Shown piece by piece: positions 1,696 through 16,082 of a stretch of 35,500 bases of DNA; position 1 is the stretch's first letter; each line of letters opens with the position of its first letter. Below the pieces are notes generated by a model. That model saw only the letters and a program-made list of their open reading frames with translations, searched no databases and was not told the origin of the DNA. A program made the translations under genes and the position numbers. The stretch is from an uncultured Holophagaceae bacterium (GTDB lineage: Bacteria; Acidobacteriota; Holophagae; Holophagales; Holophagaceae): the NCBI GenBank assembly GCA_903868115.1, contig CAIPUA010000265.1, positions 1 through 35,500 on the forward strand, read 5' to 3'.

Positions 1696-3204
1696 CTACT
1701 CCAGACGTGCCCTCATCACGGACGACAATTCCAGTGCTGGGGATGGGACCTCCAGTTCGTCATAGAACTCGCAACGGTCCACGAAATCACCGAGGACTGC
1801 GGAAAGCACTGCCAGCATAGGGTTCCACGACATCAGGAGGAAGGGACTGATGAAGCCGAGGCTCAGGCGCAGAATGCTGAGTATGGGGCGAATGGGCCGC
1901 CCCTTGCGGGCGAAGTGATGTTTGCGATGAACATAGAGGGCGATCTTGAGCGCCGCCGTGCCGAAGGCAAGCAGCGGCAAACCCCCCAGCAAGCCCAGGA
2001 GGTAATGCCCATTGAGCAGGGTCTGGCCGCTGTGCAGACTCCGGCGGCCGCGCTTCAAGGCCACCCGGTAGATGCGGTCGATGGCCAGCAGTCCCAGGAA
2101 ACCGGCAAAGGCAGCAGCCCAGGCCAGGCTTTTCACCCAGGGCAGATAGACCAGATACAAACCGCTGAATCCAAGGAAAGCCCCCGTAAGAAATATCTCG
2201 CGGCTCAGCCAGCTTGTACGGAGGTTCAGGATGGCCCGCCAGGCCCGCTCCCGGTGCCCCAGATGCCAAGCGGAGAGCAGCATGGCACCGAGACCCAGCC
2301 CCAGAAAAAGCCATACGGGTAACGCTGGACCACCGATCAGAGAAGCTATGAACCAGGCGGAGAGAACCGTCATGACCGTGGTGAAGAGCACCAGCGTCCA
2401 TTCGCCTTGCAACGTGATCTTGGCCTCGGAAACCTGGAGCAGCTGGCCCAGGAAACCTGCCATCGCACGCGGTTCGGGCGCAAAGCCGAGTTCCGGCGGC
2501 GCGTTCCGCCTCAAGGGCACGAAGCGAATGGAGGGATCCATTCCTGAAGACGGAAAGCCCGGAATATCGTGGTGCTTGTCGCCTTCATTCCGCGCCTCGA
2601 AGCCCAACGCCCCCACTGGACAGCGCGCGACACAGGCGGGCTCGAGGCCCTGGGCGATCCGCTCGGGACAGAAGGTGCACTTCTCGATGGTGCCCAATGT
2701 CGCATCGAACTTCGGTGCATCGTGGGGACAGGCCCAGGTGCAATAGCGACAGCCCATGCAGCGCTCGGCATGAACGGCAACGGCGCCGGTAGCCGGATCC
2801 TTCGTGTAGGCATTCGCCGGACAGTTGTGCAGACAGGCTGGGTCCTCGCAATGGTGGCAGGCCAGCGAGAGATGAAAGCACGGCAGATTCGGGTGATGGA
2901 AGGCGTTGAAAGTGTGAACCTGGCGCCAGTTCGGGCCGGATTTTTGGCCTGGACCCACACCACCGAAAAGCTGAACCACAGAGGGCGCGGAGGAATACGG
3001 AGGGCACAGAGGTATACCACAAGCGGGTTCGCCCGGCGCCTTCTCTGTGCTCTCTCTCTCTCTTTCTCTGTGTCCTCTGTGGTTCTCCATTTCGTTTCCA
3101 GGATCTTCCGAATTACGCGCACGGTGCTCCATCCAGCACCCCACCACGCAGGCCTGACAGCCCGTGCAGCGGTTGAGATCGAAGACGAACTGGAACGCCA
3201 TCAC
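1696..3204 (-). CDS. Fused 4Fe-4S ferredoxin (DmsB-like) and membrane anchor (DmsC/NrfD-like) subunit of a molybdopterin oxidoreductase
   Basis: 502-aa ORF with CTGCQACVVGC, CHHCEDPACLHNC, CMGCRYCTWAC and CTFCPERIAQGLEPACVARCP clusters, followed by multiple hydrophobic helices. Its start overlaps the end of the upstream DmsA-like ORF. Confidence 0.85.
   Translation of the reverse strand: MMAFQFVFDLNRCTGCQACVVGCWMEHRARNSEDPGNEMENHRGHRERERESTEKAPGEPACGIPLCPPYSSAPSVVQLFGGVGPGQKSGPNWRQVHTFNAFHHPNLPCFHLSLACHHCEDPACLHNCPANAYTKDPATGAVAVHAERCMGCRYCTWACPHDAPKFDATLGTIEKCTFCPERIAQGLEPACVARCPVGALGFEARNEGDKHHDIPGFPSSGMDPSIRFVPLRRNAPPELGFAPEPRAMAGFLGQLLQVSEAKITLQGEWTLVLFTTVMTVLSAWFIASLIGGPALPVWLFLGLGLGAMLLSAWHLGHRERAWRAILNLRTSWLSREIFLTGAFLGFSGLYLVYLPWVKSLAWAAAFAGFLGLLAIDRIYRVALKRGRRSLHSGQTLLNGHYLLGLLGGLPLLAFGTAALKIALYVHRKHHFARKGRPIRPILSILRLSLGFISPFLLMSWNPMLAVLSAVLGDFVDRCEFYDELEVPSPALELSSVMRARLE
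2951..3090. repeat. Dispersed AACCACAGAGG...CCTCTGTGGTT inverted-repeat element within the FeS-subunit gene
   Basis: AACCACAGAG (2974-2983) and CTCTGTGGTT (3075-3084) are inverted. The minus-strand translation reads ENHRGHRERERESTEK...LCPPYSSAPSVVQLF. Confidence 0.8.
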
Positions 3205-5240
3205 CCACGCTCCACTTCAACCCGGTTGTCGTGGAAGGCCGCGCCATGACCCATGTCGGTCTCCCGACCCTCGGAGAGCAGGTTGACGGAGCCGCCATCC
3301 TGAGCACTCCAGCCGTTGAAGACCACCACCACGCCGGGGCGGAGGCCGAAGTCGAGGCACACGGGCAGCCGCAGTTCGCCGCGGTCATTGAAAATCCGCG
3401 CCTGATCGCCCGGACGGAGACCACGGCTCTGCGCATCCTCCGCGCCGATGAGAAGGGCAGGCCCGGCCTCGAACTGGCGAATGACAGAAAGTGTCAAGAA
3501 CTGGCTGTGGATACCGTTCTTGGTGTTGGGAGTCAGGAGGTGGAGGGGATATCTCCCCGGCGAGCTGGCCGCACTTTCTACCGGCTCACGATATTCCGGC
3601 AGCGGCCCGACCTGCCAGCGCCGCGCCGCCTCCTCGGACCAGAGTTCGATCTTGCCAGAGGGCGTGGCAAAGCGCAGCTCGGCGAAAGCCACCTCGGGCG
3701 TGCCCGGCACCAGCACGGGGCCTTCCCGCAGCTGGTCCAGCGAAATCCCGAAGGGATCCAGCCGCTTCTGCAGCCAGGCCTCCACGCCCGCATCCGTGGG
3801 TTCCGGCAGGAACTCGCGCAGTTCAGTTTCCGTCATGCCCAGCCGCTGACCCAAGGCCCAGTATATTTCCGTCTCGGGTTTCACCTCACCCGGAGGTTCG
3901 ATCACCTTCTGCCGGAGTTGCAGGTAGGCGTGCCAATACGCGCCGATCACATCACTCTGTTCGAAGAGGCTCTTGCTGGGCAGGATCAGATCCGCCTCAC
4001 GGGCGGTATCGGTCATCCGCTCATCCACCACCACGCGGAAATCCAGGCCCCGGAGGGCCTCGAGCACCTTCGAAGTCTCGGGGTTCTGGCTCACGGGATT
4101 GCCCCGCTCGATCCACGCGAAGGCCAGCGGGGGTTCCTGCTGCGCCAACATGTCCCTGCCGAGCCGAGCCGTGCTGATGGAAACCCGGGCGATACCGTCG
4201 GGTTGTGCCGGCGGGAAGAAGCCCAGCGGATCCTTCACGGGCCCGAAGATCTGCGTGGCGAGATTCGCGTAGACCCAGCCCGCACCCGGCTTCCCGATGT
4301 TGCCGGTAATGGCCAGCAGCGCCTGCATGGCCCGCATACTCTGGCCGGCGTTCGTGTAGCGCTGCATGCCGAAGCCCGCGCATATCGTCATGGGCTTCAC
4401 GCGGCCCATGAGCTCCGCCAGATGCTGGAGCTGCGTTTCGGGTACCCCCGTCACCTCTGCCGTGCGCGCAGGCGTCCAGGACTTCAGGCTTTCAGCGAAG
4501 GGTTCGAAGCCTTGCACATGGGTTTCAATGAATTCGGAATCGGCCTGGCCCGCCTCCAGGATCAGCTTGACCACCCCCAGCGCCAGTGCACCATCGGTAC
4601 CGGGTTTCGGTTGAAGCAGCAGATGCGCCCGCTCCGAGGTCTGGGTCCGGCGCGGATCGATGACCACGAGGGTGGCACCCTGGTCCAGCGCCTGTTCCAC
4701 GAAGCGCATCTGGTGGATGTTGGTCTCCGCCGCGTTCTTGCCCCACAGCACGAGGAGACGCGCGTTGGCCAAATCCCAAGGCGCGCTGTGGGTATTCTCC
4801 CCCAGCGTGAGGCGCGTGGCCTCCAGTCCCGCGGGCCAACAGAGATCCCCGTAGGTCGTGGTGCAGCCGCCGAAGGCCCGCCAGAACGCCAGCCCACAGC
4901 CGTTCAGCAGACCCTTGGTGCCGCTGGCCGCGTAGTAGAGAACGCTCTGGGGGCCATGCCTGGCGGTGGCTTGCAGCAGTTTTTCCACTATGAGATCCAG
5001 CGCCGCCTCCCAGCCGATAGGCTCGAAAACGCCCTCCTGCACCCGCCGCAGGGGCTGCAGGATGCGGTCGGGGCTGTAGACCCGCTCCAGGTAGCTCAGG
5101 CCTTTCAGGCAGGCGCCTTCGGGCGTGGCGAGGTTGCCCGGATGCGGATCGATGGCCGTCACGCGCCCATCCGCCACCGTCACCCGCAGGGCGCAGGTGC
5201 TGTAACAGTTGCGGGGACAGGCTGTGGTGAAGACGGGCAT
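3201..5240 (-). CDS. Molybdopterin-dependent oxidoreductase catalytic subunit (DmsA/thiosulfate reductase-like)
   Basis: 679 aa; N-terminal CPRNCYSTC FeS motif; motifs LWGKNAAETN, VVIDPRRTQTSERA, GNIGKPGAGW, WIERGNPVSQNP, and a C-terminal molydopterin dinucleotide-binding region. Confidence 0.9.
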   Translation of the reverse strand: MPVFTTACPRNCYSTCALRVTVADGRVTAIDPHPGNLATPEGACLKGLSYLERVYSPDRILQPLRRVQEGVFEPIGWEAALDLIVEKLLQATARHGPQSVLYYAASGTKGLLNGCGLAFWRAFGGCTTTYGDLCWPAGLEATRLTLGENTHSAPWDLANARLLVLWGKNAAETNIHQMRFVEQALDQGATLVVIDPRRTQTSERAHLLLQPKPGTDGALALGVVKLILEAGQADSEFIETHVQGFEPFAESLKSWTPARTAEVTGVPETQLQHLAELMGRVKPMTICAGFGMQRYTNAGQSMRAMQALLAITGNIGKPGAGWVYANLATQIFGPVKDPLGFFPPAQPDGIARVSISTARLGRDMLAQQEPPLAFAWIERGNPVSQNPETSKVLEALRGLDFRVVVDERMTDTAREADLILPSKSLFEQSDVIGAYWHAYLQLRQKVIEPPGEVKPETEIYWALGQRLGMTETELREFLPEPTDAGVEAWLQKRLDPFGISLDQLREGPVLVPGTPEVAFAELRFATPSGKIELWSEEAARRWQVGPLPEYREPVESAASSPGRYPLHLLTPNTKNGIHSQFLTLSVIRQFEAGPALLIGAEDAQSRGLRPGDQARIFNDRGELRLPVCLDFGLRPGVVVVFNGWSAQDGGSVNLLSEGRETDMGHGAAFHDNRVEVERG

Positions 5241-16039: not shown

Positions 16040-16082
16040 GGACCCACACCCGCGAAAAGCTGAACCACAGAGGGCGCGGAGG
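16040..16082. repeat. Partial second copy of the dispersed AACCACAGAGG-type repeat
   Basis: GGACCCACACCCGCGAAAAGCTGAACCACAGAGGGCGCGGAGG is nearly identical (2 mismatches in 43) to 2951-2993. Confidence 0.8.

Follow-up and report, generated by a model that had tools for sequence, protein, structure and literature searches.

The iron-sulphur subunit gene and its insertion

The window, that is, the whole stretch of 35,500 nucleotides that was analysed, contains two adjoining reading frames for subunits of a molybdopterin oxidoreductase, one of which carries a palindromic insertion. The features referred to below are as follows.

1696 to 3204, minus strand: open reading frame of 502 aa for an FeS (DmsB/NrfC-like) subunit joined with a membrane part resembling DmsC; the carrier of the insertion
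3201 to 5240, minus strand: intact open reading frame of 679 aa for the catalytic subunit of the molybdopterin oxidoreductase; adjoins the FeS subunit frame
2938 to 3109, no strand assigned: inserted segment; compared with ten orthologues the net gain is 171 nt / 57 aa, with ends uncertain by about 10 nt
2974 to 3084, no strand assigned: core palindrome, 111 nt, with outward ends AACC...GGTT
2974 to 3012, plus strand: left arm, iteron-like units CACAGAGG / CGCGGAGG / ACGGAGG / CACAGAGG
3043 to 3084, minus strand: right arm, the same kind of units, inverted
2962 to 2973, plus strand: outer end kept among the genomic copies, consensus RRnAAA(A/C)(A/T)G(A/C)TG before AACCACAGAG
3085 to 3096, minus strand: the opposite outer end, which follows this consensus less closely
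16055 to 16082, plus strand: second copy in the window, a single arm, with 28 nt identical to 2966-2993

By domain assignment, the product of the frame at 1696-3204 combines 4Fe-4S dicluster domains with a DmsC-like stretch, and its place beside the molybdopterin oxidoreductase is that of a DmsB/NrfC-type subunit. The frame is open through the whole insert, with zero stop codons, and the cysteine motifs are intact despite the insertion. In ten of ten orthologues from relatives, two of which belong to the same genus, the distance from the codon before the start methionine to the CHHC motif is exactly 183 nt; the gene in the window is longer than these by 171 nt (57 residues), and the extra residues fall between the first and second cysteine clusters. 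The earlier note had seen in the segment an inverted-repeat element of a dispersed kind that had entered the gene in frame, and in this lineage alone, and both the alignment of relatives and a BLAST search of the genome (45 matches) bear this out: the insert is missing from all ten orthologues, and its genomic copies are many. Two observations had been named as speaking against that description, namely orthologues carrying the same residues and a genome free of further copies; both were looked for and neither was made. The arms AACCACAGAG (2974-2983) and CTCTGTGGTT (3075-3084) lie where the note had put them, and its span of 2931-3112 is correct to within about 7 nt, the insert being nearer 2938-3109. 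The roughly 60 extra residues it had counted are a real insertion, whose size comes down to 57 on comparison with the orthologues. An open frame without stops is also consistent with a plain loop expansion or divergence inside the gene, with no mobile insertion, but the copies by the dozen elsewhere and the insert-free orthologues already refute this explanation, to which we attach practically no credence.

The arm 10-mer AACCACAGAG occurs 60 times in the 3.42-Mb genome, against 0 occurrences of the reversed control. About half of the family loci are true pairs 90-123 nt long and the remainder are single arms; the single-arm copy in the window sits upstream of a nucleotidyltransferase-like ORF. 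Some 12 nt beyond the arms are also conserved among the genomic copies, so that the unit comes to about 131-135 nt. With its 171 nt, the DmsB insert exceeds the ~135 nt of core and conserved ends by 36 nt, which may represent longer ends, as in a subset of copies, or filler. A second in-frame copy of the family (L035, C263:14906-15012) lies in an ORF for what we take, from reading the sequence, to be a DUF3516-type helicase (the names thl, hbd and pyrG for neighbouring genes were assigned in the same way), and the 41-45 residues missing at this site in 13 relatives fit a unit of ~131 nt. As single-stranded DNA, the palindrome of the DmsB insert folds with -35.3 kcal/mol, compared with -21.8 kcal/mol when shuffled (z = -4.4). 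A search of Rfam returned no family above its cut-off, the only matches being to miRNAs at chance level.

GxxExxY genes between inverted iteron arms

The description of the insert as a mobile repeat that landed in frame stands, but it had overlooked the relation of the repeat to units that enclose a GxxExxY gene. One such gene in the same genome (L052, C163:19668-20018) is flanked by single AACCACAGAG arms of the family, being bounded by AACCACAGAGAGCGCAGAGG on one side and by the inverse of AACCACAGAGGGCGCAGAG on the other, and its outer ends, AAAAAAAGATG / AAAAAAGCTG, are the same as in the DmsB copy. Both in their 8-10-bp iteron type and in their outer ends, the gene-less copies match this unit of the same genome, and the DmsB insert very probably belongs to the GxxExxY-type class of palindromes as a gene-less member. 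Further GxxExxY genes in this genome are enclosed by other repeats built in the same way, CACGAAGGACACGAAGG for L051 and AACCGCTAATGAACGCGGATG for L054, and L053 has a related arm on its upstream side only. Next to the GxxExxY unit on contig C163, a stretch of ~152 bp that includes one arm has been duplicated in tandem (L026 / L052). Truncated or stop-containing GxxExxY genes are common, with L055, L056 and L057 in this genome and L062, L076, L094, L098, L101, L103 and L129 as further examples; such frequent breakage is as expected for decaying selfish genes.

A scan of contigs for GxxExxY (PF13366/TIGR04256) yielded 80 loci, one per contig, and 79 of these were tested with 150-nt flanks; they are the closest matches to the query rather than a random draw, and the control consisted of 1,792 random intervals, matched in length, from the same contigs. 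An inverted repeat with a score of at least 14 spans the gene at 57 of the 79 GxxExxY loci, compared with 5 of the 1,792 random intervals, and the iteron motif points outward on both sides at 43 of the 79 (1 of 1,792 at random), as against 3 loci when the motif is read in the wrong orientation. The arm-bearing loci span 12 named phyla. Their arms consist of successive units of 8-10 bp, ACAGAGGRC for example, show self-repetition at 8, 9, 10 and 19 bp (with z from 6 to 12), and are matched in pairs, a left arm resembling its own right arm more than it does 98.7% of foreign right arms. Arms and proteins also co-vary. Arm similarity tracks protein similarity (Mantel rho 0.235, with 1 of 999 permutations as high), and the protein tree requires 17 changes of arm class, whereas 2,000 shuffles required 27.3 on average and never fewer than 22, the tree being short and poorly resolved and its loci picked by similarity to the query. 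Over 59 relatives, the presence of the arm motif and that of PF13366 are associated (24/10/5/20; Fisher p = 1.8e-4). These patterns suggest that the repeats and the GxxExxY nuclease-like gene form one selfish system. Carriage by phages or plasmids was considered and set aside, since GxxExxY was present in none of 50,697 records from phages and in 8 of 72,556 from plasmids, and 1 relative was seen among IMG/VR contigs.

Within 74 GxxExxY sequences, the G, E and Y of the name-giving motif, the E and K of an ExK motif and the Q and Y of a QxxxY motif are invariant and D78 is near-invariant, a set that we take to be the PD-(D/E)XK pattern of the RecB/Cas4 branch. An AlphaFold2 model of the protein (pLDDT 90.5, pTM 0.84) has Cas4 SSO0001, Hjc resolvases and lambda exonuclease as its nearest folds in the PDB, at weak E values of 0.006 to 0.3, and tRNA-splicing endonucleases are also among the weak matches; the fold search of the PDB gave no match at E <= 0.001, and no solved structure is related to GxxExxY by sequence. 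The fold search, weak as it is, is consistent with the E, D, ExK and QxxxY motifs, and the protein is predicted to be a Cas4/RecB-like PD-(D/E)XK nuclease. The same resemblance is apparent in an RT survey whose pipeline labelled a gene in the cas4 position as GxxExxY (PMC8934634). In the open-access literature, to which our search extended (subscription journals and preprints being outside its scope), two papers mention GxxExxY by name and none connects it with repeats.

Mobility of whole units and its possible drivers

Empty sites were examined in genus g4 of the same family, using seven near-complete genomes. G034 and G006 carry units of 424-470 bp, comprising arms and gene, each of which has an empty counterpart at the orthologous intergenic junction in 2-5 sister species, and contiguous alignments cross these empty junctions. 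Presence and absence at orthologous sites are thus seen for gene-bearing units as well as for the DmsB copy. The g4 units are positioned immediately 3' of stop codons. At the site after a thiolase-like gene, G034 carries a gene-bearing unit and G031 and G016 carry gene-less palindromes with different arms, so that this site is a repeated target. On the pyrG side, a unit common to G034, G031 and G016 shows the change ACCAAG -> GCCAAG in both arms together, alongside divergence of the protein. No clear target-site duplication was seen in the flanks or the empty sites, although the divergence of the spacers is such that a short one could have been missed.

Several further observations concern the same and related sites. 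The spacer after the thiolase-like gene forms an insertion hot spot behind the stop codon, with palindromes that differ by species (L248, L302, L303 and siblings). At a site occupied in G034 by a GxxExxY unit, g4 siblings (L298, L300, L301) have other dispersed direct-repeat palindromes, GCTATCAGC and CTGGAGTCTGGAG, which are similar to the 7-bp arms around PF05635 genes described below. Where G006 carries a 72-bp element, G023 has a 26-nt mini-palindrome, TTCACCACCAAAGTATTGGCGGTGAA (L284), possibly a remnant of an element minus its middle. In G024 (L208-L214) and G008 (L228-L244), many near-identical GxxExxY cassettes, intact or truncated, lie downstream of transposases that we take, from reading their sequences, to be IS630-like and IS5-like. 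These bursts were considered as proof of self-mobility and rejected as such; the copies are carried inside the insertion sequences and are therefore uninformative on this point.

The rule that arms need a matching gene is true in the genome of the window and fails in G012 and G031, whose gene-less families have no gene with the same arms, and in G043. Any PF13366 gene is missing alongside the gene-less families of G043, G045 and G023; in G043 (L328-L351), 24 CCGCAGAGG arms occur in composite repeats, often close to contig ends, in a genome that is 94% complete and has no GxxExxY gene. In addition, genes of PF05635 (the four-helix-bundle, 23S rRNA IVP family) in relatives (L353-L382) lie between inverted arms with strict 7-bp direct repeats at 18 of 25 loci, compared with 1 of 448 control intervals. 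We know of no evidence that the PF05635 protein is a nuclease, and its presence in analogous units therefore means that a nuclease may not be the common mover: either elements of one kind are served by different proteins, or the palindromes spread by other means and the proteins, while binding the arms, are carried along as passengers.

We consider it rather probable that the DmsB insert derives from a palindromic mobile unit with iteron arms, of which it would be a non-autonomous copy that has no gene; the plan would be that of REPIN/RAYT, with a nuclease replacing the tyrosine transposase. A complete unit would consist of two inverted arms (each of 3-4 short direct-repeat units, 8-10 bp apart) around one ~130-aa GxxExxY gene. 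The protein would recognise the iterons of its own arms, probably on an extruded hairpin or cruciform, and its cutting would lead to the palindrome, with or without the gene, being copied or moved, usually to a position directly after a stop codon; gene-less copies would be mobilised in trans. Because the arms, read as NHRGHRE..., hold few stop codons, the frame can survive a landing inside a gene, as it did in both the DmsB-like gene and the DUF3516-type helicase gene of this genome. We infer arm binding, cutting and a nuclease that drives movement; that GxxExxY takes part in movement at all is, going by sequence comparison, an evenly balanced proposition.

The palindromes might instead be spread by a host process, such as fold-back replication, template switching or uptake of hairpin DNA, with GxxExxY and the four-helix-bundle proteins acting as arm-binding passengers or regulators. 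The common architecture of two unrelated protein families fits such a process, as do the gene-less families without any such gene, the lack of a visible target duplication in the (diverged) spacers and the concerted change of left and right arms, as from fold-back copying. However, arm type tracks protein lineage across phyla, and the invariant catalytic residues of a nuclease are unexpected in a plain passenger; we judge this explanation unlikely. A role of the palindrome at the RNA level is not favoured and seems less probable still. The hairpin would be cut from transcripts, like the 23S rRNA intervening sequences, or would serve as a terminator or mRNA stabiliser, and GxxExxY would act on RNA. 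A hairpin needs no direct-repeat iterons, and mismatches between the arms are of the G:U type and the A:C type in a ratio of 75 : 70, so that G:U-tolerated mismatches are not in excess and there is no sign of selection for RNA pairing; these observations weigh more with us than the insertions directly after stop codons, the strength of the hairpin and the occurrence of PF05635, named for rRNA intervening sequences, in similar units. The closest folds of GxxExxY are likewise DNA nucleases, although the tRNA-splicing endonucleases should be kept in mind.

Mobilisation of a REPIN-type element by a RAYT (HUH, Y1 transposase) would account for an identical anatomy, since REPIN/RAYT systems combine gene-flanking with gene-less palindromes (PMC3116915) and the family here likewise includes dispersed gene-less hairpin doublets. 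It is nevertheless highly improbable as the mover in this genome (93.65% complete), in which a search for RAYT (Y1_Tnp, PF01797) gave 0 matches, the controls being positive in 5 of 14 genomes. Moreover, the flanked genes are PD-(D/E)XK-like, and the arms are iterons with the consensus RRnAAA(A/C)(A/T)G(A/C)TG-AACCACAGAG and lack a GTAG or CGTC end tag.

Returning to the iteron-armed mobile unit, we propose tentatively, at somewhat less than an even chance, that bacteria harbour a general class of selfish DNA made up of such units, in which every type is paired with an arm-recognising protein of its own (GxxExxY for 8-10-bp iterons, four-helix-bundle proteins for 7-bp iterons), arms and proteins evolve together, and the scattered CACAGAGG, ACGCGAATGA, CACGAAGGA and GATGAACACC strings in bacterial genomes are gene-less offspring. 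If so, GxxExxY would be running a REPIN-like system, which no other PD-(D/E)XK enzyme is so far known to do. The PF05635 units, with the same plan and another iteron length, speak for a whole class and not a single oddity. The GxxExxY family, for all its wide distribution, has no known role, and the repeats are common, unexplained strings of bacterial genomes; linking the two provides a testable function for both, as a selfish palindrome and a nuclease expected to target its own arms. Palindromic elements can, in addition, lengthen an enzyme gene by tens of residues with the frame kept.

Comparison with known systems

GxxExxY shares the D..ExK..QxxxY motifs and the predicted fold with the Cas4/RecB-like PD-(D/E)XK nucleases, and differs from them in its size of ~130 aa, in an invariant set without Fe-S cysteines and in forming a family of its own (PF13366/TIGR04256). 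As regards the repeats, the Rickettsia palindromic elements (RPEs) are palindromic repeats of 100-150 bp that lie in frame inside protein genes. The DmsB insert is like them, by description, in being an in-frame palindrome in a protein gene; the family here, however, has gene-bearing relatives, and we know of no such gene for RPEs. RPEs have been described as a class of repeats (PMC2694212). MITEs are similarly short, have terminal inverted repeats and are gene-less derivatives of a larger unit, but here there is no DDE-type transposase, no clear target-site duplication was seen and whole units measure only ~430-480 bp. The 23S rRNA intervening sequences with S23/IVP (PF05635) also consist of a palindromic insertion enclosing one small gene, whereas the GxxExxY units occupy sites between or in protein genes, encode a protein of unrelated fold and have iterons of 8-10 bp as opposed to 7 bp.

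The likeness to REPIN/RAYT systems covers palindromic units of ~100 bp that are mostly intergenic, a full form of two inverted copies around a small gene, gene-less copies that outnumber the full forms and a gene type that matches the repeat type. What sets the present family apart is a PD-(D/E)XK nuclease-like GxxExxY protein in place of an HUH tyrosine transposase, together with arms built of 8-10-bp iterons.
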